From NCBI GenBank assembly GCA_002448395.1, contig DJXS01000029.1, positions 3,292 to 28,662 on the forward strand: DNA of 25,371 nucleotides, written 5' to 3'. The notes under the pieces were generated by a model, which was not told where the DNA came from, made no database searches, and worked only from the letters and a program-made list of their open reading frames with translations. Positions 2,542-24,859 of this stretch are shown here, piece after piece (position 1 is the first letter of the stretch; each line of letters opens with the position of its first letter). The position numbers and the translations under genes are program-made. This DNA comes from Lachnospiraceae bacterium UBA6998 (lineage in GTDB: Bacteria > Bacillota > Clostridia > Lachnospirales > Lachnospiraceae).

Positions 2542-3480
2542 TCAGGGAAGGATCTTCTGAATCTTCCTCCGGGCCCTGTGCAAAAAAGTGACCGATCCGT
2601 AGTGTTCCATAACATAATCGATCCCGTGTTTTTTGTAGTCTCTCCAGAACTTGTGCCTGATCACGGAAGGCTTTGTGGGCTCCTGCAGGTTCAGCTGCCA
2701 GCAGTCCGTCGTATTGCTCTCCCGATAGTCCATGTTCTCCTTGATCTCATCAAAGAGCTCTTTCCCCCGCTCCGTGTGGATCAGGACAAGGCTCGTTCCC
2801 ATCTCATCCACGAAATCCGGCATGCTCTCCTCCATGTGCCAGAAATCGCCGATCGTGATGTCTGTGTCCCTATCCATCCTGGTGTATGGACAGGAGTGGC
2901 AGGAAGGGCGGATCGTATAGCGGTCAGTATAGATCCTCCTGTATTGGCTGATCGAGATCTCCTCTCCGCCGCGGCAGACCGTTCCCACCGACTTGCTCCA
3001 GCCGGTCTTCTTGTTGCGGAAGTTCAGTTTGCTGAGCTTCCCTCCCTTCTCCAGGGAGCGTGCGTACTCCGCCCAAATCTCAGGGCTGGGAGCCCCGTGG
3101 CAGATTATATCGACCGTAAAGATCCGCTCACTCATCCCGTTCATCTTCATGAACTGCATAAAGCCTGCGGCCTGACATCCCAATCCCGCGAACATAAGCT
3201 TCCGGTCAGGGTTTTCTTTCAGCCAGGACAGTGCTTCTTTCCATGAATCCAGCGCGTAACTCTGCATATACATGGAGCCCGAAGACGCGTCCCTCTCTTC
3301 CTTTGTAAGGGCGAGCTTTACTTCCGTCCGGTGCTCTTCGTAGTTGTAACGCGCGCACAGAACGGCGCAGCCTTTCTCCAAAAAAGCGTCTGAGATCGCG
3401 GTAAATGCGCCGCCGGAAGAACTGCGCCGCAGTACTTCTCTATCTTGGACCCTGCAGGCATAAACCAGTGTATTCTCCAT
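2542..3480 (-). CDS. FrhB/FdhB-type protein (coenzyme F420 hydrogenase beta-subunit family) lacking its N-terminal ferredoxin domain
   Basis: Protein of 312 residues resembling the FrhB/FdhB N and C domains (flavin and Fe-S oxidoreductase family). Recognisable segments are RRSSSGGAF near residue 20, VDIICHGAPSP mid-protein, the cysteine cluster in IRPSCHSCPYTRMDRDTDITIGDFW, and a basic C-terminus. Family members in polysaccharide loci normally begin with a 2x[4Fe-4S] ferredoxin module directly before the SSSGG segment. Here the protein starts at MENTLVYACRV, immediately before SSSGG, and the ferredoxin module is found at the end of the preceding gene. The gene starts nine bases after that gene's stop, with GAGG as ribosome site. 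Its biochemical role in polysaccharide loci is not established; a redox modification of the glycan or lipid carrier is a guess. Confidence 0.85.
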   Translation of the reverse strand: MENTLVYACRVQDREVLRRSSSGGAFTAISDAFLEKGCAVLCARYNYEEHRTEVKLALTKEERDASSGSMYMQSYALDSWKEALSWLKENPDRKLMFAGLGCQAAGFMQFMKMNGMSERIFTVDIICHGAPSPEIWAEYARSLEKGGKLSKLNFRNKKTGWSKSVGTVCRGGEEISISQYRRIYTDRYTIRPSCHSCPYTRMDRDTDITIGDFWHMEESMPDFVDEMGTSLVLIHTERGKELFDEIKENMDYRESNTTDCWQLNLQEPTKPSVIRHKFWRDYKKHGIDYVMEHYGSVTFLHRARRKIQKILP

Positions 3481-3489
3481 ATTTTGACC

Positions 3490-5142
3490 TCATTCCCCCT
3501 GATCCCGCTTGAAAGCGCAGGCCTGCAGACATTTATGGCAGCGCACGCATTTGTCGGCATCGATCACAGGATACAAAAAGCCCTCTTCATCCGCTTTCAT
3601 TTCGATCGCTCCCACAGGGCAGACCGCATAGCAGGCACTGCATCCGCAGCAGCTGCTCTTCTTATCAGCGAGAGCCGGAAGGTCGGAAGCGGCCCTTTTC
3701 GCCGGAGCGCCCGCTGTCCTGCTGCCGAACCCTCTTTTTTTGTTAATATAAGCCATTCCCTTTTTCATTACAGTTCTGACGAAGCCCTTGTTGATCGCCA
3801 TAAAGACGACGCATCCCACAGCCAGGTTGATAACATTGAGAATCGGCATCTGCATAAAGCACATGACGCTCTGAGCGGCCATGATCGCGAGAATGGTCAG
3901 TATGTGGGAGACATTGTATCTGACCTTTATGATCCTCTGAACGTCGATGCTCCTGTAGATAAACAGGAACAGGTAGCTGATCAGCGTGGAGCCTGAAGCC
4001 GCGTAGAGACCGATCCAGCGGATCGTGGCAACGTCCACGATCAGGTTGATGGCTGCAGCAACGGTAGTCGTGATCCCGACACTCGCCGATTCCTTGTAAG
4101 CCACGTAGATCCCTCCCAGGAAGGTGGACATGCTGAAGAAGAACATGGCCGCAAAGAGGATCGGGATCTGGTTGTAAGCCTCCGCATAATCTCCCCGGAT
4201 CAGGAGCTTGAACAGAATCGGGGTCGCTGCGATCAGAAGGCCGAAAAAGCCGGCCATGAGGTCGAACATGACCCGGAACATAGAAGAATAGTACTCGCCG
4301 GCATCCCTGTCTTTGGACACCACCGCCGCGTTCTCCTGCCATGCCATGGTGAATGTGTTCTGCGCGATCGTCAGAAGGCCGGGGATCTTATTGGCGACCG
4401 CGTAGACCGCGTTGGCCGCTACCCCCATAAAGAATGTGACGACAAGGCGGTCCGATACCCGCATGACCCAGGCGGACATACTGTTGGGCACCATGGGCCA
4501 GGAATAACGGAGCATTTCCCCGATCTTGTCCTTGTTATAGTACCGGAAGTCGACATAGCGGAAGATCCCCGCTCTGAGGACCAGATAAGCAAAAGAAAAC
4601 ACCGCTGACATCAGAAGAGCGATCACTGTGCCCTTCAGCCCGGCTCTGAGCCAGTAAACGCAGATCACAGCAAAGATCATCTTGCCTAAAGCGGCAAGGA
4701 TCGCGCTTATCGAGTACTCCATGTTCTCGTTCAGGCCCCTGCAGATCTGTCTTGCGACATTCCCCAGAACATCAAACAGGAAATAGAGGCAGATCAGGAT
4801 CCTGATCGTGCTGTCGGTTCTTCCGAGGCAGAAAAAAAGGACGAGCAAAGAAAGCAAGGAAGTCGGAATGACGAACACAACGATGTTCGTCACGATCTCC
4901 TTCACCTTTTCCTCATCGTCTCTTACATCGATCAGAAAGCGGAACGCTGCCGCCTGGATCTGCAAAGTGACCGTGGGCAATAACAGCGATTCCAAAATCG
5001 TGATCAGGTCATAGGTTCCCATCTCCTCCTTCGTAAGACATCCGGTGAGAATGGGAAGCGTTATAAAAGAGGCCAGCCTGGGCAGAAATGTCCCGATGGA
5101 CAGTATGAGTGTATTTTTGGCCAGTTTACTCTCTCGACTCAT
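3490..5142 (-). CDS. Wzx-type polysaccharide flippase fused to a C-terminal 2x[4Fe-4S] ferredoxin domain
   Basis: 550 residues. Residues about 1-480 are a multi-pass membrane protein of the MOP/Wzx (polysaccharide biosynthesis, PST) family, with many hydrophobic segments and an N-terminus (SKLAKNTLILSIGTFLPRL) typical of lipid-linked oligosaccharide flippases. After a basic Ala/Lys-rich linker comes a bacterial-type ferredoxin: cysteines 498, 501, 504, 508 (followed by Pro) and 532, 535, 538, 542, separated by EEGFLYPVIDADKC. Such ferredoxin modules normally form the N-terminus of FrhB-type proteins, and the next gene is exactly such a protein without one. The frame is open throughout with no stop at the junction. 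The start ATG 5142 lies inside the upstream gene (17-base overlap, AAGGA ribosome site), implying translational coupling. The ferredoxin would be expected on the cytoplasmic face. Confidence 0.9.
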   Translation of the reverse strand: MSRESKLAKNTLILSIGTFLPRLASFITLPILTGCLTKEEMGTYDLITILESLLLPTVTLQIQAAAFRFLIDVRDDEEKVKEIVTNIVVFVIPTSLLSLLVLFFCLGRTDSTIRILICLYFLFDVLGNVARQICRGLNENMEYSISAILAALGKMIFAVICVYWLRAGLKGTVIALLMSAVFSFAYLVLRAGIFRYVDFRYYNKDKIGEMLRYSWPMVPNSMSAWVMRVSDRLVVTFFMGVAANAVYAVANKIPGLLTIAQNTFTMAWQENAAVVSKDRDAGEYYSSMFRVMFDLMAGFFGLLIAATPILFKLLIRGDYAEAYNQIPILFAAMFFFSMSTFLGGIYVAYKESASVGITTTVAAAINLIVDVATIRWIGLYAASGSTLISYLFLFIYRSIDVQRIIKVRYNVSHILTILAIMAAQSVMCFMQMPILNVINLAVGCVVFMAINKGFVRTVMKKGMAYINKKRGFGSRTAGAPAKRAASDLPALADKKSSCCGCSACYAVCPVGAIEMKADEEGFLYPVIDADKCVRCHKCLQACAFKRDQGE

Positions 5143-6238
5143 TAAGTACTGATTCCTTCTCCATCTGATCCGCCCTCTCGGCGATCAGTTTTATATAATC
5201 CCCGGATCTTCGGCGAAGGAGGCCGAGCCGCCTCTGCGCCTCATTCCAGTCCGGGTTAAAACTGTAATCCTCTTCACTGTTTTTGAGGATGCAGTCCTGT
5301 AATCTGCAGCTGTTAAGAAGGTCTCTGCTCCTGACATTGAACTTCTTGACGGTCTCCAGCTCTACTTTGAATTTTTTGCCGAAGATTATGGAAAAAGCGG
5401 TCCCGTGGAAGGAATTGGTAAGAACGTATTCCGCGCCCGCGAACAGACCCACGAACTCCTCCGGAGTGCTGTAGCGGACCCTCGGGATATCCCTGTTTTT
5501 CCTGTATTCATTATTCAGATACAATATTTTGACACCGGTCCGCCTGGACAGCTCTCTCGCCGCGTTCAGCAGGTTGATGTCTCCATCCACCGTGTAGACG
5601 AAGATGTAGGGCTCCGGGCGGTTTGCGGGCGTCATGAAGCGCTCCCATTTCTCCCTGCCAAGAAGGAGCGTGGGATCGAGATCCGCCCTCGCCTCATAGC
5701 CGATCGTCTCCATAAGGTCAACCGACCTGGTCTCACGCAGAGAGATGCACTGCATTCCGGAGAGCCACTCCCTGTACAGTTCCTTCGTTCCCTCGGGAAA
5801 CGCGTCAAAACCCAGACTGCAGGCGTAGGAATAGCGCTGCTGCTCCCTCGCGAACACGAGCATATAGGCGGGATCCATACCGGAAAGCTTATTGTTCCAG
5901 ACCTGGTCCGAACCCGCGACAAACAGGGCATAGTCGTCCTGTGCCCCTCTGAGATCTTCGAACTGCATCGGCTGTGAAAGCTCCAGCTTATTCCTTCTGA
6001 AAGCGCCGAAAATGCGGTCCTTCTTCATTGCCACCAGGCACCGGAACAGCACAATGGGAAATCTGTGCCGCTTAAACAGTCCCCAGGGCCTGTGGCCTTC
6101 CTCAACAGTACGGCAGCGGTAATCCACGATGATCGCTTTTCTTCCCAGGCCGCTGATGACCTGCTGAAGCGCATATGCCTGCAGGACCGCTCCGTAATTA
6201 GATGCTCTGTGGAAGGTCAAAATACCGATTGGTTTCAT
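5126..6238 (-). CDS. polysaccharide pyruvyl transferase family protein
   Basis: 370 residues with the hallmarks of the PS_pyruv_trans family (CsaB/WcaK-like, GT-B-like fold): N-terminal GILTFHRASNYGAVLQAYAL, the FVAGSDQVWNN segment around residue 110, and the C-terminal TNSFHGTAFSIIFGK motif. Characterised members add pyruvate ketals from phosphoenolpyruvate to cell-wall or exopolysaccharide sugars, but many homologues sitting next to FrhB-type genes are unassigned. The trio pyruvyl transferase, flippase and FrhB is recurrent in Firmicute and Bacteroidetes polysaccharide loci. The 3' end overlaps the flippase start by 17 bases. The start ATG 6238 has a GAGAGAGA ribosome site. Confidence 0.9.
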   Translation of the reverse strand: MKPIGILTFHRASNYGAVLQAYALQQVISGLGRKAIIVDYRCRTVEEGHRPWGLFKRHRFPIVLFRCLVAMKKDRIFGAFRRNKLELSQPMQFEDLRGAQDDYALFVAGSDQVWNNKLSGMDPAYMLVFAREQQRYSYACSLGFDAFPEGTKELYREWLSGMQCISLRETRSVDLMETIGYEARADLDPTLLLGREKWERFMTPANRPEPYIFVYTVDGDINLLNAARELSRRTGVKILYLNNEYRKNRDIPRVRYSTPEEFVGLFAGAEYVLTNSFHGTAFSIIFGKKFKVELETVKKFNVRSRDLLNSCRLQDCILKNSEEDYSFNPDWNEAQRRLGLLRRRSGDYIKLIAERADQMEKESVLNESRE

Positions 6239-6288: not shown

Positions 6289-7335
6289 TTATTTCTCAAA
6301 GGCTGACTTTTCCGGAAGCAGCCGGTCGAAAGCATCCAGAAGCTTCTTCTTCGCCCACTCGAAATCTTCCTCGGAGTCAATCTCATCCGCGTCGTTGAGG
6401 CACAGCATGGGATATTTGCCGCCCGTGACAAGTCCGCACAGCTTCTCCACCAGATCTCTGTCGGAACTGATCGTGTAGTGCGCCCCAAGCTTTTCCAGCC
6501 TTTCGGGCACGAAATTGCCGCTGGCCAGCTGCCAGTAGCGGAATACAAACTGGCTCACGTCCCTGACATCCCTGAAGCGGTGCCTGCAGGCGTCATCCAG
6601 TCTCTTTCCGTTGAGTTCCCATATAGTATCCATCGTGCTCTTGAGGATCGGCACCGGCAGGTGCTCGTTCCTGAATCCGGGAAACATGACGAACTTGCTG
6701 CAGTAGTAATTCTCCAAAACAGCGCTGACGCCGTTTTTCCTCACAGAAAACCACTTGTCCCGGTCCTTTCGAAGGACCTCGTGCATATCAAAGTGCTCGT
6801 TGATCACTTCCGTGCAGTTCAGATAAATGTGCGGCATGATGGACCCGATCTTTCCCGGCCTTACCGCATGGAGCCTCGCCTGGTGCACCGGTTTGCCGTC
6901 CCTGTAGAAGATCTCCTTCGGGATGCTCCTGCACAGGAAAGTGTCGTCATTGAAATATACGAAGTGCTCCGACAGCCCCCGGATCCTGTTGACATTGAGC
7001 TCGATCGGATGGGAGCTGAATGTGGGAAGGTATTCCTCGGGAATATAATCGGAGTGCTTGACATGGACCAGTTTGTCCGCGTCCAGGTTCAGCCAGGACG
7101 GCACATGGCCGCATGTCACAAAATAGATCTTGTTGACCCAGGGCGCGAATTTCTCCACGCCTCTGAACCAGTAGCGGAGCGTCTCCCAGTCCCGGTATCT
7201 CGCATCCCGGTCGTCCACCAGAAAGCGGTCCTTGGGCGCGTAACTGTTCCTGAGCGCTCTCCACTCCGGATCGCTGTCATCCACCCATAACAGTACGAAG
7301 TCAATGGGGTAATCAGATTGATTCGTTTTCGCCAT
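6289..7335 (-). CDS. Stealth-family sugar-phosphate transferase (capsule phosphotransferase)
   Basis: 348 residues. The Stealth conserved regions appear in order: CR1 as YPIDFVLLWVDDSDPEWR (residues 9-26), CR2 with RDWETLRYWFRGVEKFAPWV, IYFVTCGHVPSWL and HFVYFNDDTFL, then CR3 and CR4 toward the C-terminus. Characterised Stealth proteins transfer hexose-1-phosphate or polymerise phosphodiester-linked capsules, so this gene implies phosphodiester linkages in the product. The open frame extends upstream to 7503, but that extension overlaps the preceding gene by 140 bases, is Arg-rich and unlike the family. ATG 7335 has GGGAG upstream and puts CR1 near the N-terminus as expected. Position: 28 bases after the epimerase gene and 50 bases before the pyruvyl transferase gene. 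Confidence 0.92.
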   Translation of the reverse strand: MAKTNQSDYPIDFVLLWVDDSDPEWRALRNSYAPKDRFLVDDRDARYRDWETLRYWFRGVEKFAPWVNKIYFVTCGHVPSWLNLDADKLVHVKHSDYIPEEYLPTFSSHPIELNVNRIRGLSEHFVYFNDDTFLCRSIPKEIFYRDGKPVHQARLHAVRPGKIGSIMPHIYLNCTEVINEHFDMHEVLRKDRDKWFSVRKNGVSAVLENYYCSKFVMFPGFRNEHLPVPILKSTMDTIWELNGKRLDDACRHRFRDVRDVSQFVFRYWQLASGNFVPERLEKLGAHYTISSDRDLVEKLCGLVTGGKYPMLCLNDADEIDSEEDFEWAKKKLLDAFDRLLPEKSAFEK

Positions 7336-7363
7336 TTTAGTACATTCTCCCTGCCCGGATCCT

Positions 7364-8419
7364 TCAGATCTGTCCCAGGATCTCCATCGTTCTGCGCATA
7401 CCGCTTCTGATATCATAAACAGGCTTCCATCCCAGCTTCCTGAGCTTCGCGCCGTCGAGCCTGGCCTTGGTAGCCTTGCTGTAGCCCTGCGCCTCAACAG
7501 CATCCGGGATCTCGAAGATCACCTTGCTGCCGGCGTTTTCCGCGATCAGCGCCGCAAGGTCCCTCAGACTTATGTCCGAGGCCTCGTCCGCGATGTTGTA
7601 GGCCTCTCCGCTCTCTCCCTTGAGCAGAACGGTGATAAAGCCGCTGACTGCGTCTGCCACATATGTGTAACTGTAAAACTGGGTGCCCGCCGACTTGAGG
7701 ACGATGTCCTCGCCTGCGATCCCCTTTCTGATAAACTGGCTGATCGCCTTGGTATCCGTCATCAACATTGTCGGGCCGTAAGAGCGCGTCAGCCTCGGAA
7801 TGCAGACGTCAATTCCCTTCTGCTTCCTGTAAGCCTGGCAGAGAGCCTCTCCGCACCTCTTGCTCTCCGGATATCCGGCCCTTAGCGTATTGCAGTCGAT
7901 ATAGCCGCAGTACTTCTCGTCGAAAAGTTCGATATCTCCGCGGTTCTCGCCGTAGATCTCATTGGAGGAGGCGAAGGCAAACCGCTCCACTCCGTGGGCA
8001 CAGGCGAACTCCAGCATGTTCTGAAGGCCTATGATATTGGTCGTGATCGTTCCGATCGGGTCTGTCGCATACTGGATCGGATGTGTATTGGATGCAAGAT
8101 GGATCACGAAATCCACTTTGCCGATATCTTCCCGTACAAAAGGAAGATTGATGTCATAAGGTATGAAAGAAAACAGCGGATGGCTGCTGTACTCTCCGAA
8201 TCTGGCCCTGGCCCTCTCTTCGCTCCTTCCAAGGGCGTAGATCCTGCAGTTCATCCCTGCCAGGTTCCTCTCCATCAGAACATCGATCAGAAAGCTTCCC
8301 ACCAGACCTGTCGCGCCCGATATAAGGACTGCTTTGTCCTTCAACCGGTCCCACGGAAGATCCAGTCCGGCAGTCCTTCTGACATCCTCCATATAATATG
8401 CGTTGTCGTATAAATTCAT
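7364..8419 (-). CDS. NAD-dependent epimerase/dehydratase (extended SDR)
   Basis: 351 residues. The Rossmann nucleotide-binding motif GATGLVG is at 35-41 and the catalytic triad is visible as Ser151/152 in SSNEIYG with Tyr183-x3-Lys187 (YPESK). This is typical of sugar-nucleotide 4-epimerases and 4,6-dehydratases such as the UDP- or dTDP-glucose enzymes. Substrate cannot be told from sequence. An extra N-terminal stretch of about 30 residues precedes the Rossmann fold. It follows the cytidylyltransferase by 12 bases, suggesting it may act on the CDP- (or NDP-) activated product. A GAGG ribosome site lies nine bases from the ATG. Confidence 0.9.
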   Translation of the reverse strand: MNLYDNAYYMEDVRRTAGLDLPWDRLKDKAVLISGATGLVGSFLIDVLMERNLAGMNCRIYALGRSEERARARFGEYSSHPLFSFIPYDINLPFVREDIGKVDFVIHLASNTHPIQYATDPIGTITTNIIGLQNMLEFACAHGVERFAFASSNEIYGENRGDIELFDEKYCGYIDCNTLRAGYPESKRCGEALCQAYRKQKGIDVCIPRLTRSYGPTMLMTDTKAISQFIRKGIAGEDIVLKSAGTQFYSYTYVADAVSGFITVLLKGESGEAYNIADEASDISLRDLAALIAENAGSKVIFEIPDAVEAQGYSKATKARLDGAKLRKLGWKPVYDIRSGMRRTMEILGQI

Positions 8420-8431
8420 TCCGCTCTACCT

Positions 8432-9148
8432 CTATTTGAGCCAGTGGTCCCTGTCTGCCCTCAGATAGGCCTTGAACATCTCCAGGTCATCCTTGGTCGT
8501 AAGTTTGATGTTCTTGTCGGAACCCGCGGCAAAATAGAGCCTCTCGCCGAGTTCCACCATCATCGTATTAGTATAAGAGGAGCCGTAGATCCCGATCTTT
8601 TTCTCAAAAGCTTCGTGATAGGCCCAGTCCAGTTTGCCGAACCGGTAAGCCTGCGGCGTAGAGACCCTTCTTAAGGTCTCGCGCGGTATATACTTGACCG
8701 TGCTGATCTCGTCGTCGACCACAAAGATCTGCTCGTTGTAAGGAAGAGACGTCACAGCGTTCCCGTATTTCCTGCACTTGATAATGACGTCCGAGAGGAC
8801 TGTCGCGTCCACCAGAGGCCGGATCCCGTCATGAATGATGATGATATCGTCGTCACTGCATTTGCCTTCGAGGTTGTAGACGCCGTTGCGGATGGATTCC
8901 TGTCCCGTCTCGCCTCCCTGCACGATCCACTTGAGCTTGTCAATGCCGTACTGTTTGGCGTAGGCGCGCACGATATCATGCCATCCGTCGATACAGACTA
9001 CCTCGATAGCGTCGATCTCAGGATGCCTCTGAAAGCCCTCCAGCGTGTAGATCAGGACGGGCTTATCATATACATTTATAAACTGCTTGGGGATATCATA
9101 GCCCATTCTGTGCCCTGATCCCCCCGCGATGATGATCGCTATGTTCAT
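8432..9148 (-). CDS. IspD/TarI-like cytidylyltransferase
   Basis: 238 residues. The N-terminal nucleotide-binding loop is AGGSGHRMG with PKQF (residues 20-23), and DGIRPLVD is the second family motif. The fold is that of 2-C-methyl-D-erythritol-4-phosphate cytidylyltransferase (IspD) and of ribitol-5-phosphate or glycerol-phosphate cytidylyltransferases (TarI, Bcs1). Its place between a CDP-alcohol phosphotransferase and an epimerase inside a surface-polymer operon favours a TarI-like role, making a CDP-polyol or CDP-sugar, over isoprenoid synthesis. No TarJ-type reductase partner is next to it. The ribosome site AAAGGAGA lies within the last codons of the upstream gene, so translation is coupled. 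Confidence 0.85.
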   Translation of the reverse strand: MNIAIIIAGGSGHRMGYDIPKQFINVYDKPVLIYTLEGFQRHPEIDAIEVVCIDGWHDIVRAYAKQYGIDKLKWIVQGGETGQESIRNGVYNLEGKCSDDDIIIIHDGIRPLVDATVLSDVIIKCRKYGNAVTSLPYNEQIFVVDDEISTVKYIPRETLRRVSTPQAYRFGKLDWAYHEAFEKKIGIYGSSYTNTMMVELGERLYFAAGSDKNIKLTTKDDLEMFKAYLRADRDHWLK

Positions 9149-9150
9149 TT

Positions 9151-9885
9151 TCAGTCTTTCTCCTTTAATACGGACCGAAGTGACATCACCATTACCGCCG
9201 TGTTGAACAGCAGATAGCAGATCGTGTAAAGATCTGTGATATTAAGCAGAATTGCCGCAAGAAGCAGCACCTGCGCGCCGCCGGCGCAGGATCGCAGATT
9301 CAGCGCGATCGTCTTAACGATCCCGTAATCCGCCTTATCCATGACATCCTTCACGGCATCCTTGTCCATCGTGGTCGTGACTGCCTTGTGCATGACCAGC
9401 CTCGGGAGCAGATCCACAATCGCCGTCAGTCCGCCGCAGATCACAAGGATCTCCGCTGTGACCAGGCCTCCCCTTACAAGCGGTCCTGTGCTGTGTGCAG
9501 CCATGATGCCTGCTGCATAGAACATGAGCGCCGAGGCAATATAGCCGGCCATGGCGTCATAGACACTTCCCATCTTCGAAAACTGCTTCCTGTATCTGGC
9601 GACATTGCCGTCCACTCCATCCAGAAGATTCCACATAAAGAACAAGATCCAGCTTACGATCATGCCAGTCTTCGACCTTGCGGCGCATGCCGCAATAAAT
9701 CCGAGTACGGCCGGGACGATCGAGATCATGGAGATCGCATTCGGGGTGAGGTTTGTATACAGGAACGGGATCGTCAGCGCGTAAGAAAGCGGTCTGCCGA
9801 TATAAAAGGCAAAAATATCATTTTTTGCCATTGCCCTCTTAGCGGGCGTCATCGATTTTTCTTCAATTTCTTTGATAGTGATCAT
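9151..9885 (-). CDS. CDP-alcohol phosphatidyltransferase family membrane protein (atypical active site)
   Basis: 244 residues, several hydrophobic helices. Enzymes of this family move a phospho-alcohol from a CDP-alcohol to an acceptor hydroxyl at the membrane. The signature D-x2-D-G-x2-A-R-x8-G-x3-D-x3-D is seen as D89-G-V-D92-G-N-V-A-R97 ... G106-S-V-Y-D110-A-M-A, but the last position is Gly114 instead of Asp. That fourth Asp is described as the catalytic base in the family. The gene is first in its operon, and the cytidylyltransferase starts two bases after its stop, so the pair probably makes and uses one CDP-activated alcohol. It is unlikely to be housekeeping PgsA, given the context and altered motif. 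Confidence 0.85.
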   Translation of the reverse strand: MITIKEIEEKSMTPAKRAMAKNDIFAFYIGRPLSYALTIPFLYTNLTPNAISMISIVPAVLGFIAACAARSKTGMIVSWILFFMWNLLDGVDGNVARYRKQFSKMGSVYDAMAGYIASALMFYAAGIMAAHSTGPLVRGGLVTAEILVICGGLTAIVDLLPRLVMHKAVTTTMDKDAVKDVMDKADYGIVKTIALNLRSCAGGAQVLLLAAILLNITDLYTICYLLFNTAVMVMSLRSVLKEKD

Positions 9886-10090: not shown

Positions 10091-11266
10091 TCAGTTCTCC
10101 TTTCCCTCTTCTCTTCCGGTCAGCTGCATGAACAGGTCTCTGTGCTCTCTTGCCGTCCTCTCCACGTTGAACCGGTCCTTAACGATCTTCACTTCATTCT
10201 CCACCAGATACTCTCTCAGTTCCGGATCATCATGAAGTCTCACCACCGCTTCCGCGGCTCCGTAATAATCCTCTCTCTCCACGAGAAGGCCGTTGACGCC
10301 GTCCTGGATGATCTCCGGGATCGCGTCGACATTTGACGCCACGATCGGCTTGCGGATCAGCATATACTCGGGAAGGACAAGTCCGAAGCCCTCCCATCTG
10401 CTCATCAGCATTGCCACATCGAAGTTGCAGATATAATTGAAGGGATCATTGACCCAGCCTGTGATCAGGAATGAATCCCTGAGGCCGTATTCCCTTACGA
10501 GCTTCTCTGTCTCTTTCCTGTTGAGACCATCGCCGACAATGACGAAGAAAGCCTCGGGGATCCGCTTCTTGATAACGGAAGCGGCCTTGACAAAGATATC
10601 AGGCGCTTTCTGTGTGGCCAGACGGCCGACAGTTCCGACGACAAAGGCGCCTTCCGGAATAACGTTCATATCCAAGGGCTTCGTATGCTCTGCGCATTCC
10701 TCGTCGAAGTCAATGCCGTTGTAGATCACATGAAGCTTGGAAGGTTCGCAAATCTCGTGAGCCAGCGCCGTATTCTTCTCGAATTCGGAAATGCAGACAA
10801 TACTGTCCGTGACAGGCGCCAGCATCTTCTCGATCATGACATAGGACCCGATCAGTTTCTTGTCGGCGCCCTTCATATTAAAGGCCCAGCCATGCGCGTT
10901 ATAGACGCTGATATTCGGCTTGCCCTCCCTGTTCTTAAGGCCAATATTCGCAAGACGTCCGATCGCTCCTGCCTTAGAACTATGGCAGTATACGATATCC
11001 GGCTTGTACTTGCTGATCAGCTTCCTGACTTCCATGATGCTGCGGAAATCCGCGCTCGCGCTGATCGGATGATGCATATCCGCGACATGTTCCACCTTGG
11101 AGACGATGTCGGTAAACTTCCCGGCGTCAATAGAATCCGAACACACGAGGATATGCTCAAGCTCGTCACTATAATTCTGTTTTAGCTTAGTCAACAGGGC
11201 GACCAAGTATCGTTCCACGCCTCCCGGCGCTTCCGCGATATGTAAAACACGTACTTTCTTCGCCAC
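10091..11266 (-). CDS. family 4 glycosyltransferase (GT-B fold)
   Basis: 391 residues. The N-terminal domain has the glycine-rich acceptor-side loop APGGVERYL (residues 13-21). The C-terminal domain has GTVGRLATQKAPD, VIVGDG and the nucleotide-sugar binding E-x7-E motif in WEGFGLVLPE. This is a retaining GT4 enzyme, cytoplasmic or membrane-associated, that adds a sugar to a lipid-linked or nascent glycan; donor and acceptor cannot be read from sequence. Start is GTG 11266 with AGGAGAGA seven bases upstream; no better ATG exists. It lies between the GT2 gene and the glycopolymer operon, with its own terminator, so it probably contributes to the same surface polysaccharide. Confidence 0.92.
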   Translation of the reverse strand: MAKKVRVLHIAEAPGGVERYLVALLTKLKQNYSDELEHILVCSDSIDAGKFTDIVSKVEHVADMHHPISASADFRSIMEVRKLISKYKPDIVYCHSSKAGAIGRLANIGLKNREGKPNISVYNAHGWAFNMKGADKKLIGSYVMIEKMLAPVTDSIVCISEFEKNTALAHEICEPSKLHVIYNGIDFDEECAEHTKPLDMNVIPEGAFVVGTVGRLATQKAPDIFVKAASVIKKRIPEAFFVIVGDGLNRKETEKLVREYGLRDSFLITGWVNDPFNYICNFDVAMLMSRWEGFGLVLPEYMLIRKPIVASNVDAIPEIIQDGVNGLLVEREDYYGAAEAVVRLHDDPELREYLVENEVKIVKDRFNVERTAREHRDLFMQLTGREEGKEN

Positions 11267-11423: not shown

Positions 11424-12368
11424 TCACTGATTTTTTAGAAGATAATGATAGATATTCTCTATGACCGTAAGCCGGAATTCGAATTCCTGCCGGTCCTTCT
11501 CCGCCAGCGTAGTCAGGATCAGGCCTGTAAACAGCGACAAAACGCCGCCCAGCCCGATGAATCCCGAAACTATGAGCGTCGGGAACCTCGGCACGAGGCC
11601 TGTCTGTGTATACTCTATGAATACAGGCACGAACAGGATCACTGTCAGAGCGAACAGGATCGCGCTCAGCCAGCCGAAGAAATACATCGGCTTGTAATTC
11701 TTGTAGAGCCTGAAGATCGTCGAGAGAACCCTCATCCCGTCCGAGTAGGTATTGAGTTTGGATTCGCTTCCTTCGGGCCTGTCCCTGTACTCGATAATGA
11801 CATTCTCGATCCTCATATTCTTCTCGACGGCGTGAATACTCATCTCCGTCTCGATCTCGAATCCCTTGGAGAGGACCGGGAAGCTCTTGACGAACAGGAA
11901 ACTGAAAGCTCTGTATCCCGTCATTATGTCTCTGATATTGGTCTTGAACAGCCGATTGATGCTGCCTCTCACAAGACTGTTGCCAAAATTGTGAAAAGGC
12001 CTCTTGTTCTCTTCGAAATATGTCGAAGAGAGCCTGTCTCCGACCACCATATCCGCATTCTTCGAAAGGACCAGGTCGGCCATCTCCCTGCCGTATTCAG
12101 CCGGATAAGTGTCATCCCCGTCCACCATGATATAGCACCGGGCGTCGATCTCCCTGAACATCCTGCGGATCACGTTGCCCTTTCCCTGCTGGTACTCGTG
12201 CCTGACCACTGCTCCGCTCTCCCGGGCGATCTCTGCAGTCCTGTCGGTGGAATTGTTGTCGTAGACATAGATCACCGCTTCCGGAAGAGACCCCTTCCAG
12301 TCTGAGACCACCTTTCCGATCGTCTTCTCTTCGTTATAGCATGGTATCAGAACTGCTATCTTATCCAC
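11424..12368 (-). CDS. family 2 glycosyltransferase with C-terminal membrane anchor (DPM/GtrB-like)
   Basis: 314 residues from the chosen start. The GT-A domain shows IAVLIPCYNEEKTIG at the N-terminus, DNNSTDRT, and the metal-binding VDGDDTYP. Two hydrophobic segments (FFGWLSAILFALTVILFVPVF and LIVSGFIGLGGVLSLFTGLIL) anchor the C-terminus. The layout matches polyprenyl-phosphate hexose synthases (DPM1/GtrB-like), which load a sugar onto undecaprenyl phosphate. I choose GTG 12368 because GGAG lies six bases before it and the protein then begins directly at the GT-A strand. An in-frame ATG at 12404 has no good ribosome site and sits in the 3' arm of a leader hairpin. The gene precedes GT4 without an obvious terminator between them. 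Confidence 0.88.
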   Translation of the reverse strand: MDKIAVLIPCYNEEKTIGKVVSDWKGSLPEAVIYVYDNNSTDRTAEIARESGAVVRHEYQQGKGNVIRRMFREIDARCYIMVDGDDTYPAEYGREMADLVLSKNADMVVGDRLSSTYFEENKRPFHNFGNSLVRGSINRLFKTNIRDIMTGYRAFSFLFVKSFPVLSKGFEIETEMSIHAVEKNMRIENVIIEYRDRPEGSESKLNTYSDGMRVLSTIFRLYKNYKPMYFFGWLSAILFALTVILFVPVFIEYTQTGLVPRFPTLIVSGFIGLGGVLSLFTGLILTTLAEKDRQEFEFRLTVIENIYHYLLKNQ

Positions 12369-12397
12369 TGTTATCTCCTGTATCCCTATTGCGGCGT

Positions 12398-12432
12398 CTG
12401 ACATCCCGGGCTGTTCCCGAAAAACATGTCAG
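12398..12432 (-). promoter_or_regulatory. leader hairpin upstream of the GT2 gene
   Basis: 7-bp outer arms CTGACAT (12426-12432) and ATGTCAG (12398-12404) enclose an inner CGGG/CCCG pairing. It lies between the promoter at 12443-12471 and the GTG start at 12368, and buries the alternative ATG 12404. Function unknown; it could shape translation or bind a regulator. Confidence 0.45.
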
Positions 12433-12605: not shown

Positions 12606-14237
12606 CTATCCGAAGATCAGGTAAACAGCCAGCACCAGGATCACATACACCGCGCAAGGCAGAATATTCATGGAAATGATCTTTCCTTCATTTCCCGTCG
12701 CTTCCGTGGTGGAGGAAACCGCAACGACATTGTGGATGCAGATCATGTTGCCGATCGCGCCGCCTGCCATCTGCAGGGCGATCATGGATGCTGCGGGGAA
12801 TCCCAGGATCTGTGCGGTCTGGAATTCCAGGGGACCGAACATGACGCCGGAGACCGTGCAGGATCCGGATACGAACGCGCCGAAGACGCCCAGCGGAGGA
12901 ACGATGAAGGGGAAGGCCCTTCCGATATTCGCCACGATCGTTGTGCTGATCTGGGTGATCATGCTGTCAAGGCCGGAGTTGTTGAGGCCGGAGCCCAGCA
13001 TGATCTGCACCATTGCGATACCGCTCACGAGAGCCATGGCAATGGTCAGCACCTGTTTGCCGGTTGCGCTGAACACAAAGTTCACGTCTTCTTTGCTCAG
13101 ATTCTTGCGGTTGGCCAGCATTGTGCCGATCGCTACCAGAATGAAAGGCGTAAGGCCGGGGTTATAGATCAGCGCGAAGTCATAATTGAGTCCTTCAACA
13201 CCGAGGATATTCTCCACATGGATGGCTGCGGAGTTGAGCAGTGCGCGCAGTCCGAACTGAGGCACGCGGGTCAGCAGCAGGATGATCGCGATGATCAGGT
13301 AAGGCGTCCAGGCCTTTAGGAGCTTCCTGCGGCTCACTGTTCCGAAGATCTCCTTGGGCATGATCACTTCGTCGTGCTCGATATCGTAGAAGTACCACAC
13401 ATGCTTGGGCACGAAGACCTTTGCGCGGGCGGCAAGAACTGTCACAACCAGTCCGATGCATGCGCTGATAATGGACGCGAACTCAGGTCCAAGGTAAGTT
13501 CCCAGGAAATAATACGGAATTACAAAGGAGCAGGATGCCATCAGGCAGAAGGGGATCATCTCGACGATACTCTTCATCCGTCTGCCCGTGGAGTAGAACA
13601 TAACCAGTGTCACCACCAGCAGGATCGGTACGATGAAGCCCGCAAGTCCCAGATAGAGGACCGTCTTGTGTGTGACTGCCGCAGTGAACTCATCCAGCGG
13701 GATTCCGAGCTGCTCGGATACAGCGCTGGAAAGGTTCGTCATATTAGTCAGCATCGGTGTGCCTACTGCCGCGAAGGGAACCGGCGTGCTATTGGAGATC
13801 AGCGCGACCGAGCAGGCTGCCACGGGAGGGAATCCCAGGCCGACCAGAAGAGGCGCCGCGAGCGCTGCGGGTGTTCCGTAACCGGCCGCGCCTTCAATGA
13901 ATGCTCCGAACATGTAAGCGATGATGATCGCCTGAATGCGGGGATCCGGTGTGATCTTCTGAAATCCCTCGTTGATGACCTGCATGATGCCGGTCTGCTT
14001 GAGCGTGTTGAGCAGCAGGATCGCGCCGCTTATGATCAGCAGCAGATCCAGCGACTTGAGCGCGCCGTAGACAAAATATGCCAGGACTGTCGGCACTTCC
14101 ATCTTCCAGACCGCGACTGCCAGTACGATCGTCACGATCAGCGAGATGATCAGGGACTTGCCCGATGAGAACTTGAAGCCCACCATCAGTACGAGCGCTG
14201 TCAAAAAGGGAATTGTTGCAAGTAATGCGTATACCAT
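12606..14237 (-). CDS. lctP: L-lactate permease (LctP/LldP family)
   Basis: 543 residues, about 12 or more hydrophobic helices, the usual length for LctP/LldP lactate:proton symporters. Recognisable features are the [20 protein letters not shown] segment near residue 110, [14 protein letters not shown], and the C-terminal [18 protein letters not shown]. It moves lactate (or glycolate) across the cytoplasmic membrane. In many clostridia the gene is next to an electron-bifurcating lactate dehydrogenase with Etf subunits; here it stands alone, with its own promoter, operator-like repeat and terminator. Start ATG 14237 follows CGGAGAG by about 11 bases. Confidence 0.95.
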
Positions 14238-14454: not shown

Positions 14455-17379
14455 TTATTTCATTAATCCTGCTTTTCTCTTTCTGTAGTTACTGAAGAAC
14501 TTTGAGAGAAGCGCAAGGCAGAGCAATGTCACGATCGCGTCAGCCGCGTACATGATGATCTTCCACTTCGCTATGCCTGTGTTGAGGTTTGCGGGATCGT
14601 ACTGGCGGCTGTTGGCGACGACGTAGAGGATATTCTTCGCAGACTCGCGCATAGCCTGCTGTGCGCCATTGGTATCGCGGAATCTGACATCATTGGTCTC
14701 TGTAGGATAGTTGACCAGCATCAGGTCGGAACCGTTTCTGATACCCTGATCAGCGCTCATATAGCCGTATACGCCAAAATAGTCCGTCTCGACAAATCCT
14801 CTGAAGCCCCACTCGTCGCGGAGGACAGTCTTGCAGAGGGAAGAACTGCCGCCTGCCCAGCGGTTGCCGATGTAGTTAAAGGCGGACATGACTGCAAGGC
14901 AGTCGGAGTCCTTGACGCACTTCTCGAAAGGCTTCAGGTAGATCTCGCGGATCGCCTGCTCATTAGACCATGTGCAGAGCATATCGCATCTATTGCCTTC
15001 CTGGTCGTTTAACGCGAAGTGCTTCATGTAAGCGTAGACACCGTAATCCTGAGATCCTTTGACCGCGTTCGCCGCGATATGTCCGGAAAGGACGGGATCC
15101 TCGGAATAATACTCGAAGTTACGGCCTGCAAAAGCAGTTCTGTGGTTGTTCATGGCCGGTGCGTACCAGCCGGAGACATCCATTTCATTGGCCATCTTGC
15201 CGATGCTCTCGCCGAATCTGTAAGCCAGATCCTTGTTCCAGGTCGCCGCAATGGTAACTCCGACAGGGAAACCGATGGAACCGACGCCGGTGAAGTTGTT
15301 GTTGATGGAGGCAGGGCCGTCGCAGTCGTTGGTGCGGACTTTGCCGATGCTCTCGACAGAGTTGGTCTGATATCCGCCCAGGGAGATCAGGGCATTCATG
15401 TCGTCCAAAGTCATCTCATCCATCAGCTGATCCCACTTGGGGTCGTTCTTATCAAGGCCGCGCATATCTACGAGCTTAAGGCTGTTATCAGCGCCGGTCG
15501 TAACTGCTGCCGCGTTCGGATCCTCATCTGCCGCTGTCGCCTCCGCTGTCAGGTAGTTGCTGATATTGTAGAAGGCCGCCTTGGCATCCGCTGCCATTTC
15601 AAAGCTTGCGGGCGCTGCAGTAGCTGCCGCATAGTTCGCGAACTTGTCCGCGCGGGACAGATACTCGACATTTCCGGCCGCGTAATCAAACTGATTGGTA
15701 GCTGTGACCTGATCACTTGCGCGCTTATTCTCGCCGCTGTAAGTGAGGGTCTCTGCTACATTGAATACTTTGGATTCGATCTTATTGTGAGAATCCGTGT
15801 TGATAGAGATCTCATAGTCTCCCGCTTCGAGGACATAGCCCTTGGCGTTCTTATCATCGTAGGACATCAGCTCTTCCTTGCTGACTACGATGTTGACTGT
15901 CTCAGTGGCGCCGGGCTCAAGGAGACCTGTCTTCTCAAACTGGACAAGGTTTGCGCTGGCTTTCTCAATGCCGCCGTTTGTATAGGGCGGATTGGAGTAA
16001 ACTTCCACGACGTCCTTACCAGCGACAGTGCCGGTGTTAGTGACATCGACTGTAAAGGAAATAGTATCGCCGTTGTCCGTGATCTCGCTCATTTTCTGCG
16101 TGAAGGTCGTATAGGACAGTCCGTAGCCGAAGGGATACTGAACGACCTGGTCATAGTTGATAAGGCCTTCCACAGCAGCGGTCTCGTAGAAACGATAGCC
16201 TACATAGATGCCTTCCACGTAGTTTACGAAAGAAGGAATCGATGTGGACTCGGTCCCTGTGAAGCCCACGGAAGTGTACTTGAACTCATCCATGTTGGTG
16301 TAGTTGAAATCGCCGAAATTGTTCCACCAGGGTGTCGCCTTGAGGTCATAGACCAGCGTGTCGACCGTCTTGGCAGAGGGGTTGACTTTGCCGGATACGA
16401 CTTCTCCCAGAGCGGTCATGCCGATGTGTCCTCCGGGAGCTGCCCAGATGAGACCCTTGATCTGAGGGTATTCTTTGACAAAGCCGAATTCGAAAGCGTT
16501 GGAGCCGTTGTAAACTACGATGACGTTTTCAAAATTCTGACACACCAGAGCGACCATCTCCTTCTCGCGGTTGTCGAGCATCAGATAGTGATCGCCGGCG
16601 TTCCAGTCATTGCCCTCGTTGAGAGTGTCATCATAGGTCGCCGCCCTGTAGGTCGTGCCGTCCTGGTATGTTCCGTCGATGATCGCCTGAACGTCATTGG
16701 GAAGATCCGCGCCCTCTCCGCCGGGTCTTGAGATCACGATCATAGCCGTGTTAGAGAACGCCTTGGCATTCGACATCATACTGTCTGTATACTTGCTGAC
16801 GTTAGGCTCGGGCAGAGTCCAGTCCTGCGCCCACATGCCGCAGACCGGGCGGTCCGCCTTGTAAGCGGTGTAGAAATCGCTCAGTTCAGTGTTGGTCTCA
16901 ATGCCCGCGTCGTTCAGGCTCTGCAGAAGGCTTACAGACTCATAAGCCGTGTTCAGGGCGCCGGATCCGCCGCCGCCCAGCATGGGATTTGTGGAAGCCC
17001 AGCCGAATACGTTGAGCTTGGTCCCCGCAGCGAGGGGGAGAATGCCGTCGTTCTGCAGCAGCATCGTTCCCTCTTCCGCGATCTCAACTGCCAGCGCAGA
17101 AGCTTCCTTTGAGGTCTCCTCCGTGATCGTGCCGCTCCCGCTGACCAGGTCGAGCATCGTGCTCATGGGACCGATGCAGATCAGGTTCACGCAGATGCAG
17201 ATTCCTGCGACCGCCGCGATAAAAGCAGTTCCTCTGATGAGGCGCTTCCCCGGCTTGGCCATCCTGCTCACAAGAAGCTGGATCAGGATCGCGGCTGCAA
17301 TGATGATTCCTATTGCGATCAGGTAAGTCCTGATTGAATTGATGACGTTCATAACGTCACTCATGTTAATGGACAGCAT
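14455..17379 (-). CDS. membrane-anchored, domain-permuted GH3 glycoside hydrolase (beta-glucosidase type)
   Basis: 974 residues. Two hydrophobic helices lie at the N-terminus (about 18-38 and 48-70) and one at the C-terminus (about 940-962), so the enzyme body is tethered at both ends and probably outside the membrane. The GH3 C-domain comes first: EEGTMLLQNDGILPL (102-116) and SRPGGEGADLP with Glu222 as acid/base candidate. A fibronectin-III-like domain follows around 430-550, then a low-complexity Ala-rich linker. The GH3 N-type (TIM-barrel) domain is last: TNDCDGP from 683, GRNFEYYSEDP at 752-762, KHFALNDQE from 786, and GFVETDYFG with Asp866 as candidate nucleophile. This reversed order is known in Ruminococcus albus and Butyrivibrio beta-glucosidases. 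GGAGG lies five bases before ATG 17379. The gene follows the epimerase gene by 41 bases, in one operon. Confidence 0.92.
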   Translation of the reverse strand: MLSINMSDVMNVINSIRTYLIAIGIIIAAAILIQLLVSRMAKPGKRLIRGTAFIAAVAGICICVNLICIGPMSTMLDLVSGSGTITEETSKEASALAVEIAEEGTMLLQNDGILPLAAGTKLNVFGWASTNPMLGGGGSGALNTAYESVSLLQSLNDAGIETNTELSDFYTAYKADRPVCGMWAQDWTLPEPNVSKYTDSMMSNAKAFSNTAMIVISRPGGEGADLPNDVQAIIDGTYQDGTTYRAATYDDTLNEGNDWNAGDHYLMLDNREKEMVALVCQNFENVIVVYNGSNAFEFGFVKEYPQIKGLIWAAPGGHIGMTALGEVVSGKVNPSAKTVDTLVYDLKATPWWNNFGDFNYTNMDEFKYTSVGFTGTESTSIPSFVNYVEGIYVGYRFYETAAVEGLINYDQVVQYPFGYGLSYTTFTQKMSEITDNGDTISFTVDVTNTGTVAGKDVVEVYSNPPYTNGGIEKASANLVQFEKTGLLEPGATETVNIVVSKEELMSYDDKNAKGYVLEAGDYEISINTDSHNKIESKVFNVAETLTYSGENKRASDQVTATNQFDYAAGNVEYLSRADKFANYAAATAAPASFEMAADAKAAFYNISNYLTAEATAADEDPNAAAVTTGADNSLKLVDMRGLDKNDPKWDQLMDEMTLDDMNALISLGGYQTNSVESIGKVRTNDCDGPASINNNFTGVGSIGFPVGVTIAATWNKDLAYRFGESIGKMANEMDVSGWYAPAMNNHRTAFAGRNFEYYSEDPVLSGHIAANAVKGSQDYGVYAYMKHFALNDQEGNRCDMLCTWSNEQAIREIYLKPFEKCVKDSDCLAVMSAFNYIGNRWAGGSSSLCKTVLRDEWGFRGFVETDYFGVYGYMSADQGIRNGSDLMLVNYPTETNDVRFRDTNGAQQAMRESAKNILYVVANSRQYDPANLNTGIAKWKIIMYAADAIVTLLCLALLSKFFSNYRKRKAGLMK

Positions 17380-21937: not shown

Positions 21938-22002
21938 AAGGGACTGCCGCATTAAGCGTGAAGGTTCAAGACCTACGCTATTGCGGCACGTCCCTCTTTT
22001 TT
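21938..22002 (+). terminator. long intrinsic terminator shared by two convergent operons
   Basis: A long stem-loop: AGGGAC, TGCCGCA and AGCGT blocks pair with ACGCT, TGCGGCA and GTCCCT with small internal mismatches, followed by TTTTTT on the plus strand. It closes the GntR-ABC operon. It also lies at the stop codon (22001-22003) of the convergent minus-strand operon, where the T-run is weaker. Confidence 0.85.
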
Positions 22003-23797
22003 ACAGCCCGAATGTCAACCCGCCCACAATCTTCTTAATGATCTCAATATGCTCCGGCAGGAAATGGACCATATCAAGCTGAATAAACACAAACGCACTT
22101 ACTATCATCGAATAGATGGACAGCAGGCAGATCGCAGTGCTGAATTCACTGGCTTCCTCGCAAGGCTCCATCACTTTAACCGGTGCACCGGCTTCCTCAG
22201 AAACTTCCAGCTCCGCTGTAGCAACTTCTACTGCCCCCTCCGAGGTGCCTCCCGCGCTTCCATCTGTATACCGCATTCCCACCGCCAGGAACACAAGCAT
22301 GCCCAGCAGCCACATCATGTCTTCTCTATAGCGTGACAGCAGGTATGGTGTCCAGACGATGTCCATCATGATAATGACGCCGATCGTAAGGATACCGCCC
22401 AGGAGGAACAGGACGAATTTGTTGGCCCGGAGCGCGGAACGGGTCTTTTTGCTTGTGAGGGCAAAAAGCCCGACGCCGAATACAGGATAGGTGTAGAACA
22501 CGCCTCCCTCCACGATGTGGGGGAATTCTGCGGTCAGGTCTTCGGAGCGGGTAAGGAAGTAGGTCGCTCCGTTGAGAAGGCCCCGGGCGCTCAGTCTGGA
22601 TAACAGGCTGCCGTAGGCGGTCTGGTCTGCGACCGTCAGCTGGTAGCTCTGGCCGAATTCAAAAGGATTCTCGAACCGGGCATAGTTGTAGAGCATGAGC
22701 AGCGCGCCGATGATGATGTAGGGCGAGGCAGCTGCCACCAGTTTCAGGAACAGCTTCCCGCTGAATTTGTGCTCTCTCAGGAAAACGATCAGGCACGGGA
22801 TCACGATCAGGTTTCCGAGCGCGATGGACGGGCGGCAGCCGAATGCCAGCGCGCCGAAGAGCGCTCCCAGAAAAGCCCGGAAAATGGCCCGGTTCTCTTC
22901 CTCGATCCCGGTGGCCCACACTGCTTTGACATATAAGTAGACGCTCCAGATCTCCATGCAGAAAGCTGCCGCAAAGGCCGTCATGTACATTGCAGGCTTG
23001 GCGACGCAGTGCACCATGCTCGTGACCGATACTGCTGCGCCCAGAAACAGGTAGACCACGAAGGACAGCTTCGGGAAGAAGCGCTTCGACAGGAGCCTGA
23101 AGAACAGGAAGAGGCCGATGATCGACATGCCTACAAAGACCTGCGTCGCGTGGTAGGTCGTCAGGCTCGCCCCGGTGATCAGCTTAAACGGGATGAACAG
23201 CAGGAAGACCGGCACTACGCCAAAATACATATAGTAGCGCCCTTTATAGAAAGCATGATCCCAGTGATACCTGACTCCCAGCGCTCTTCTGGCCTGGGTG
23301 TCGTAGGGATTGGGCATCTCGAGGAGGCGGCGGTCCATATCGCCGTACTCGAGATAAATCTGCCCGTTCAAAAGAGCGTCAGCCATCAGCTCATACTGGT
23401 TTTTATTCTTGATCGCGAATCGGTCGGGATCTTGGCCTTCATCGTCCTTGCTAAGGGCCGCTGCCGCGGTTTCCATCCATTCTTCTTCGCCCGCGCTGGC
23501 AGCTGCGGCCTTGCCGTCCTGCTCTGAGGAAACAGCCGCTCCGGACGCGTTCCCCTTGGCCCGCGCCTCAGTCTCTTCCATGAGTTTCGCGGTGATCTCC
23601 CCGTTCCACATGGGGCACAGCGTCATCAGAAAGCTGCTCGATCCGATCAGCGCGGCCAGCACCAGTACTGTCGCCATAACATGCAGGACGGACCACCGTT
23701 CCATAGTGACGCGCAGGAAGCCGGATCCGGGACGGACAAGCCAGACCACCCCCAGCATGACCACCCAGAATATTATGCCACATATAATAGAATTCAT
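22001..23797 (-). CDS. multi-pass membrane protein resembling GT-C glycosyltransferases
   Basis: 598 residues with about 11-13 hydrophobic helices. The first periplasmic loop holds a motif set seen in GT-C-like proteins of unknown substrate: MADALLNGQIYLEY, NPYDTQARRALGV, YHWDHAFYKGRYYMYFG. A low-complexity insert of about 45 Ala, Glu, Lys and Ser residues (residues 80-125) comes before it, and a second acidic low-complexity loop (around 508-548) lies near the C-terminus. I can support the membrane topology and GT-C resemblance but not a substrate. It starts 15 bases after the thioredoxin reductase gene (GGAG ribosome site), so it is co-transcribed with redox genes, an unexplained pairing. 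Confidence 0.75.
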   Translation of the reverse strand: MNSIICGIIFWVVMLGVVWLVRPGSGFLRVTMERWSVLHVMATVLVLAALIGSSSFLMTLCPMWNGEITAKLMEETEARAKGNASGAAVSSEQDGKAAAASAGEEEWMETAAAALSKDDEGQDPDRFAIKNKNQYELMADALLNGQIYLEYGDMDRRLLEMPNPYDTQARRALGVRYHWDHAFYKGRYYMYFGVVPVFLLFIPFKLITGASLTTYHATQVFVGMSIIGLFLFFRLLSKRFFPKLSFVVYLFLGAAVSVTSMVHCVAKPAMYMTAFAAAFCMEIWSVYLYVKAVWATGIEEENRAIFRAFLGALFGALAFGCRPSIALGNLIVIPCLIVFLREHKFSGKLFLKLVAAASPYIIIGALLMLYNYARFENPFEFGQSYQLTVADQTAYGSLLSRLSARGLLNGATYFLTRSEDLTAEFPHIVEGGVFYTYPVFGVGLFALTSKKTRSALRANKFVLFLLGGILTIGVIIMMDIVWTPYLLSRYREDMMWLLGMLVFLAVGMRYTDGSAGGTSEGAVEVATAELEVSEEAGAPVKVMEPCEEASEFSTAICLLSIYSMIVSAFVFIQLDMVHFLPEHIEIIKKIVGGLTFGL

Positions 23798-24727: not shown

Positions 24728-24814
24728 TTTGCTTTCCTCCCTTGATGTATCTCTTCGCGGCCTTCATGCCGTGACTGACCCGCACCAGGTCCTTCTATGC
24801 CTTTTACAGCAAGA

Positions 24815-24844: not shown

Positions 24845-24859
24845 CTCTATTTTCTTTCA

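Follow-up and report, generated by a model that had tools for sequence, protein, structure and literature searches.

Why should the gene of a membrane exporter end in a ferredoxin? This question is raised by a 25,371-nucleotide stretch of DNA from Lachnospiraceae bacterium UBA6998 (assembly GCA_002448395.1, contig DJXS01000029.1, positions 3,292 to 28,662), called the window in the following, in which a polysaccharide flippase gene runs on into a ferredoxin and is followed by the gene of an FrhB-type flavoprotein. Both genes are part of a conserved cassette, composed of a polysaccharide pyruvyl transferase (PS_pyruv_trans), a Wzx flippase, a 2x[4Fe-4S] ferredoxin (Fer4) and an FrhB-type flavoprotein. 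The explanation that serves best overall, and in which we place qualified confidence, is that Fer4 on the flippase tail feeds FrhB, which would reduce the lipid-linked glycan before its export.

The flippase and the ferredoxin share a single open reading frame (ORF) on the minus strand (3490-5142, 550 amino acids (aa)), which matches PF01943 (Polysacc_synt, 84.1 bits, cut-off 28.2) and, at residues 498-544, Fer4_7 (37.1 bits, cut-off 27). Residues 1-450 (3793..5142) constitute the flippase part with 14 hydrophobic helices; the Polysacc_synt match and the 14-helix MOP fold, the latter taken from the model of the homologue P0006, identify it as a Wzx/PST flippase, predicted to flip a lipid-linked glycan. 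A basic C-terminal helix (residues 451-474; 3721..3792) is not a membrane helix by hydropathy, its best 17-residue value being -0.3 versus 0.95-2.74 for helices 1-14 (limits from the P0006 model). Since this tail is positively charged after helix 14, its position suggests that the helix and the attached Fer4 are cytoplasmic. Next come a variable linker (residues 475-493; 3664..3720) with low model confidence and a high ratio of nonsynonymous to synonymous substitution rates (dN/dS), and the 2x[4Fe-4S] module (residues 494-545; 3508..3663). The latter has two CxxCxxCxxxC motifs (at 498 and 532) and a Fer4 match above cut-off, as befits a ferredoxin domain; its cluster cysteines are 498/501/504/508 and 532/535/538/542, exactly where the original prediction had placed them, and Cys 499 is an additional one.

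The neighbouring ORF (2542..3480, minus strand, 312 aa) is a reductase of the FrhB_FdhB type according to PF04432 (84.9 bits) and PF04422 (35.5 bits). The original prediction was equally right that it lacks a ferredoxin and starts just before its SSSGG segment: the Pfam scan of this ORF returned no Fer4, and its N-terminal start is MENTLVYACRVQDREVLRRSSSGGAF. Relatives do normally begin with one, since a Fer4 Pfam domain is found in 117 of 120 homologues listed for a Bacteroides Fer4-FrhB protein (counted by eye). The ferredoxin belongs to the FrhB enzyme; in the lineage of the window the flippase frame runs through Fer4 and FrhB starts as a separate gene. Cys102, 127, 194 and 197 as well as Asp207 and 212 of FrhB are invariant in all 64 unique FrhB sequences. 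The TGA stop of the flippase-Fer4 gene (3490..3492) lies in frame with the FrhB ATG (3478-3480), the gap being three codons, and is overlapped by a GAGG (3488..3491, minus strand) that, on reading the sequence, may serve as the FrhB ribosome-binding site. The in-frame arrangement of TGA and ATG recurs in the loci L032, L033, and L050, while L034, L035, L037, and L059 use other frames (and L037 a TAA). UGA readthrough linking Fer4 to FrhB was rejected on account of these differing frames and of the ATG that FrhB has for itself.

That the fusion is real and conserved we regard as practically certain. The same open frame and split occur in two further metagenome-assembled genomes (MAGs) named uncultured Lachnospiraceae bacterium, with 95% (L032) and 94% (L033) identity. 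Compared to L032, dN/dS amounts to 0.051 for the flippase, 0.48 for the linker (residues 466-493) and 0.061 for Fer4; compared to four more distant loci, it is 0.086-0.122 for the flippase and 0.154, 0.047 and 0.129 for Fer4, with one value undefined. Purifying selection acts on the flippase-Fer4 fusion, which is conserved. In the top 120 homologues, both CxxCxxCxxxC motifs are present in 61, one motif in a single protein, and neither in 58; of the 61, 49 measure 495-800 aa, and 12 are flippase-Fer4-FrhB chains of 866-914 aa. A 67%-identical protein on 325 contigs, named for Hungatella, has both motifs, so the fused form is not limited to the genus of the window. Databases already hold flippase-ferredoxin proteins under generic names. 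The original prediction called this domain order unusual, which holds insofar as a related flippase (E<=1e-60) was found in only 17 of 397 genomes family-wide; the fusion nevertheless recurs, the flippase tree requiring 19 or more transitions between the fused and the solo form.

The genes of the cassette are cut in many ways. The split form of the window, with Fer4 on the flippase and FrhB separate, is shared by L032-L035, L037, L050, and L059. L036 and 12 proteins among the best 120 homologues join all three parts in one chain. A solo flippase followed by a Fer4-FrhB protein occurs in L039, L041, L046, and L047, and in L045, which is cut by its contig end; three separate genes in the order flippase, Fer4, FrhB occur in L043, L048, and L054, and in L040, where some 1 kb separates flippase and Fer4. 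Fer4 stands last, behind flippase and FrhB, in L056 and on the R. albus plasmid pRUMAL02, and Fer4-FrhB lies ahead of the flippase, with or without PS_pyruv_trans in front, in L012-L014, L044, and L051. As a side observation, the FrhB protein of L020 (3-1292, the same place as L103) has its ferredoxin at the C-terminus rather than at the N-terminus.

The contig scan yielded 32 flippase loci, and in 22 of them both Fer4 and FrhB lie on the same strand at a distance of up to 6 kb. Of these 22, 17 keep the order flippase, Fer4, FrhB whatever the gene boundaries, and five deviate; the ferredoxin thus usually, though not always, keeps its position in the DNA while the gene boundaries shift. The idea that the ferredoxin had moved from FrhB onto the flippase is therefore only partly right and goes too far for most loci, in which the boundaries change and the order in the DNA is kept.

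On the FrhB tree (65 rows), split and tri-fused forms are intermixed within one 17-row clade, with several long branches elsewhere. The tri-fusions P0005 and P0008 have an FrhB from another clade, grouping with L010 and L065, and yet the P0005 flippase is 90% identical to that of the window over trimmed columns. The flippase tree, built by a quick method and with many weak branches, comprises 131 of 173 sequences (the rest being more than 93% identical with the same layout), after exclusion of matches below 350 bits or about 400 residues. Its 19 or more fused/solo changes compare with at least 26 in 100 label shuffles, so the fused trait is clustered yet often changing; these counts do not separate gain from loss, and for rows from the protein search solo describes the protein alone, not its neighbourhood.

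What does the reductase act on? The gene upstream of the flippase (5126..6238, minus strand) encodes a PS_pyruv_trans (PF04230, 116.2 bits, above cut-off), predicted by its family to transfer pyruvyl from phosphoenolpyruvate. The genes of the cluster are tightly packed, and the last 17 bases of this one overlap with the start of the flippase gene. Within the 62 genomes of the window's genus, PF04432 yields 38 matches in 28 genomes. PF04230 lies within 5 kb of 32 of these 38 matches, in all cases on the same strand, and within 10 kb of one more, while the contigs of five carry none. PF04230 is present in all 28 FrhB-bearing genomes and also in 22 genomes of the genus without FrhB. In 10 of the 38 matches, FrhB and PF04230 domains share one frame of 787-833 aa, and the fetched loci hold six distinct PS_pyruv_trans-Fer4-FrhB sequences; L084 (1036-3399) encodes a fusion in the opposite order, Fer4-FrhB-PS_pyruv_trans. 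A tree of 71 of the 73 PF04230 domains (the two weakest omitted) contains a 38-row clade, including the window protein, of which 36 rows are FrhB-linked and two come from genomes with FrhB at a contig start. Outside this clade, 2 of 33 are FrhB-linked, both from loci in which a clade member is present too.

The pairing extends beyond the genus, where it remains strong without being strict. Across 119 genomes with one representative per genus (not counting the window genome and two sub-cut-off PF04432 matches), FrhB is frequent (42 genomes) and mostly near such a PS_pyruv_trans (within 6 kb for 34 of 53), while 38 of 62 PS_pyruv_trans have FrhB within 8 kb; 31 genomes contain both, 12 PS_pyruv_trans only, 11 FrhB only, and 65 neither. 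Six plasmid records matched as well. The four with annotation at the match were examined, stem from Bacteroidota and Bacillota, and have PS_pyruv_trans and FrhB adjacent or, in pRUMAL02, separated by the flippase alone. Within 6 kb on the strand, the 32 flippase loci, several of them on short contigs, comprise 21 with PS_pyruv_trans, Fer4, and FrhB, one with Fer4 and FrhB only, three with PS_pyruv_trans only, and seven with none. A sequence search of the PDB with PS_pyruv_trans gave no match at E<=10. As to O-antigen and capsule loci of E. coli, two Bacteroides FrhB genes had no blastn match in 20,395 records, a search too insensitive for exclusion.

A nitroreductase as stand-in for a missing FrhB found weak support and was dropped: of the 92 ORFs scanned at 22 PS_pyruv_trans loci without FrhB, just 2 matched PF00881, one (L202:4049-5008) directly adjacent to PS_pyruv_trans, the other presumably L193:8867-9895. 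These loci represent 23 of the 24 unlinked PS_pyruv_trans places (G138:C35 was left out), and the 92 ORFs are 95 minus four long ones plus L193:8867-9895, added by hand after an earlier flag. An unexpected neighbour in the same loci (L187-L206, L225, L226) is TPP_enzyme_N, matched by 5 of the 92 ORFs.

How the parts may work together is indicated by the predicted structure of a natural tri-fusion, in which a WzxE-like flippase is combined with a Fer4-FrhB unit whose docking resembles that of solved enzymes, and linker residues 471-484 have a confidence below 50. Fer4 on the flippase tail would rejoin FrhB in the geometry of the one-chain Fer4-FrhB enzymes and hand electrons to the FrhB cluster and flavin; on the strength of this model and the invariant cysteines, we consider such electron flow from Fer4 to FrhB highly probable. 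HCAR-type FrhB enzymes are ferredoxin-dependent flavoprotein reductases. The F420 synthesis markers CofD and CofH were each above cut-off in none of the 62 genomes of the genus, many of them incomplete MAGs, so F420 is an unlikely electron donor here; sub-cut-off matches exist in 8 (CofD) and 42 (CofH) of the 62, and 3 of 14 control genomes scored above cut-off.

The pyruvyltransferases WcfO and P. alvei CsaB act on undecaprenyl-linked precursors before export, according to passages of PMC6801904. Together with the putatively cytoplasmic Fer4 and the improbability of F420, this leads to the sequence modify, reduce, flip. FrhB would reduce an undecaprenyl-linked glycan already modified by PS_pyruv_trans, a substrate that we judge rather probable, and the same flippase, to which the reductase would be tethered, would then export the reduced glycan. 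The main role of the fusion would be to bring reductase and exporter to one substrate; as several interchangeable layouts exist, tethering may be helpful, but is not required. The layouts join three gene families into one step, whose substrate and product become testable.

Several findings weigh against this explanation. The tri-fusion model has a predicted template modelling score (pTM) of 0.53 and does not resolve the placement of the flippase relative to the redox unit. The 38-row clade was contrasted with a PF04230 subfamily that diverges deeply from it (25 of the other 33 rows, with 8 left out), so it does not isolate a chemistry. Outside the genus, pairing is not obligate: 24 of 62 PS_pyruv_trans lack an FrhB in a range of 8 kb, and for 19 of 53 FrhB no PS_pyruv_trans lies on the strand at up to 6 kb. 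The PS_pyruv_trans gene of two of the four plasmid loci carries an annotation in two pieces and may be broken. Finally, FrhB is missing from the strand up to a distance of 6 kb in 10 of the 32 flippase loci, some of which are on short contigs; the flippase family thus also exists without it.

Other explanations fare less well. Co-translated neighbours might fuse and split by neutral drift of gene boundaries, a fused ferredoxin working as if it were alone. The many coexisting layouts, interleaved on the trees, and the separate ferredoxin genes between flippase and FrhB in L040, L043, L048, and L054 speak for such drift, but the flippase tree shows repeated joining of Fer4 to the C-terminus of the flippase, and the P0005 and P0008 tri-fusions use another FrhB lineage, which leaves it improbable. 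We give about the same low weight to the idea that FrhB reduces another part of the glycan or the lipid carrier, unrelated to pyruvyl transfer, and that PS_pyruv_trans is just a frequent cluster member. Direct fusions of PS_pyruv_trans with Fer4-FrhB in both orders and the adjacency in 32 of 38 cases speak against it, even if the pairing is not obligate family-wide and solved family members serve systems as varied as HCAR (5dqr) and F420-dependent sulfite reductase (7np8).

The original prediction had coupled the redox step to glycan flipping itself, an idea that finds no support, the partnership with PS_pyruv_trans indicating glycan modification instead. That electron transfer by Fer4 gates or powers the flippase would suit the physical fusion and its recurrent layouts; however, neither motif occurs in 58 of the nearest 120 homologues, and 56 of these 58 have the length of a flippase alone; the linker, moreover, is modelled at low confidence, as if flexible, so that we hold this to be very improbable. 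Although the window genome is a MAG of 138 contigs and 73% complete, an assembly or sequencing artefact hiding a stop or frameshift, against which the prediction had cautioned, is ruled out for all practical purposes by independent MAGs with the same frame and split, purifying selection, and dozens of homologues.

Returning to reduction before export, a tentative proposal concerns the product. PS_pyruv_trans might transfer an enolpyruvyl group to the lipid-linked glycan, which the ferredoxin-fed FrhB might reduce to 1-carboxyethyl, following the logic of MurA and MurB with unrelated folds. A 1-carboxyethyl (lactyl) ether as FrhB product is conceivable rather than likely. The same caution applies to the wider suggestion that PS_pyruv_trans and Fer4-FrhB form a lactyl-ether synthase for surface polysaccharides, whose reductase is docked on the flippase via ferredoxin in this genus. 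Published tables of Klebsiella capsules fit, a match noticed after the fact. In the text consulted of PMC4616057, 4 of 79 Klebsiella types (K8, K22, K37, K66) have a pyruvyltransferase gene and no pyruvylated capsule. Table 1 of PMC6856556, evaluated by eye, gives O-lactyl groups only for the K antigens K22, K37, and K66 and lists K8 with pyruvylated Gal. K22 contains 4-O-[(S)-1-carboxyethyl]-GlcA, as stated in the title of a paper from 1988 that PMC3857182 and PMC7246685 cite. The consulted text of PMC4616057 also counts two nitroreductases and one coenzyme F420 hydrogenase in cps loci without naming the types; that these three are the reductases of K22, K37, and K66 is our guess. If the lactyl proposal were true, candidate enzymes for the lactyl-ether sugars of capsules would be at hand, and a redox enzyme would be shown to dock to a flippase.

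The cassette of the window closes a minus-strand surface-glycan cluster, composed of GT2, GT4, CDP-alcohol phosphotransferase, IspD-like cytidylyltransferase, epimerase, Stealth transferase, PS_pyruv_trans, flippase-Fer4, and FrhB. The GT2 glycosyltransferase is AglJ-like (11424..12404; PF00535, 63.5 bits; TIGR04182, 214.2 bits, under the cut-off of 325), followed by the GT4 glycosyltransferase (10091..11266; PF00534, 119.7 bits), a CDP-alcohol phosphatidyltransferase (9151..9885; PF01066, 40.2 bits) and an IspD/TarI-like cytidylyltransferase (8432..9148; PF01128, 129.1 bits), which matches the D-ribitol-5-phosphate cytidylyltransferase model NF001183 with 130.6 bits, under its cut-off of 166. 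Next are an NAD-dependent epimerase/dehydratase (7364..8419; PF01370, 149.1 bits) and the Stealth-family transferase (6289..7503; PF11380, 144.6 bits). In the ORF list, the Stealth and epimerase frames overlap by 140 bases; the conserved part of the Stealth protein begins at about residue 57 (MAKTNQSDYPIDFVLLW), so its true start is probably later.

An L-lactate permease (12606-14237; PF02652, 343 bits) adjoins the cluster on the same strand. Elsewhere in the window, we observed a GH3 glycosidase (14455-17379) in reversed order, its C-terminal domain (106-395) ahead of the N-terminal domain (704-872), with hydrophobic ends; an M24 peptidase of the methionine aminopeptidase type with an N-terminal SEC-C motif (669-1631); a thioredoxin-reductase-like pyridine nucleotide-disulphide gene (23813-25324), adjoining a glutaredoxin/thioredoxin-like protein with a long N-terminal extension; and a hydrophobic protein of 598 aa (22001-23797) without Pfam match at E<=1e-4.

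In open-licence PubMed Central text, we found neither flippase, ferredoxin, and FrhB together nor polysaccharide pyruvyl transferase with coenzyme F420 hydrogenase under those names, nor, in the parts retrieved, an account of the role of FrhB near PS_pyruv_trans; the lone match to 4Fe-4S, Wzx, and fusion is a paper on Leptospira genomes. S. pyogenes qim was discarded as an FrhB precedent, as the portion of PMC13059722 at hand concerns an F420-0 ligase-like gene, not FrhB; PMC11766843 and PMC11989651 contributed nothing further. Compared to known systems, the window protein differs from Wzx/PST flippases (WzxE, PF01943) by its cytoplasmic 2x[4Fe-4S] tail. The components 8riu_B and 8rja_E of F420-reducing CODH and formylmethanofuran dehydrogenase, as well as HCAR (5dqr), share the geometry of Fer4 and FrhB, whereas in the window this unit is split over two genes and stands in a glycan context; unlike F420-linked FrhB enzymes, it occurs in a genus with no F420 synthesis marker above cut-off. 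The ketal-pyruvyltransferases WcfO and CsaB, which we take to be PF04230 members, would be of the same family as the PS_pyruv_trans of the window, whose FrhB-linked subfamily may give a product that is later reduced. MurB performs flavin reduction to the lactyl ether. MurA performs the preceding enolpyruvyl transfer, as an excerpt of PMC6801904 has it, and the window system would, under the lactyl proposal, share this logic with unrelated folds and act on a lipid-linked glycan, not on a uridine diphosphate (UDP) sugar.
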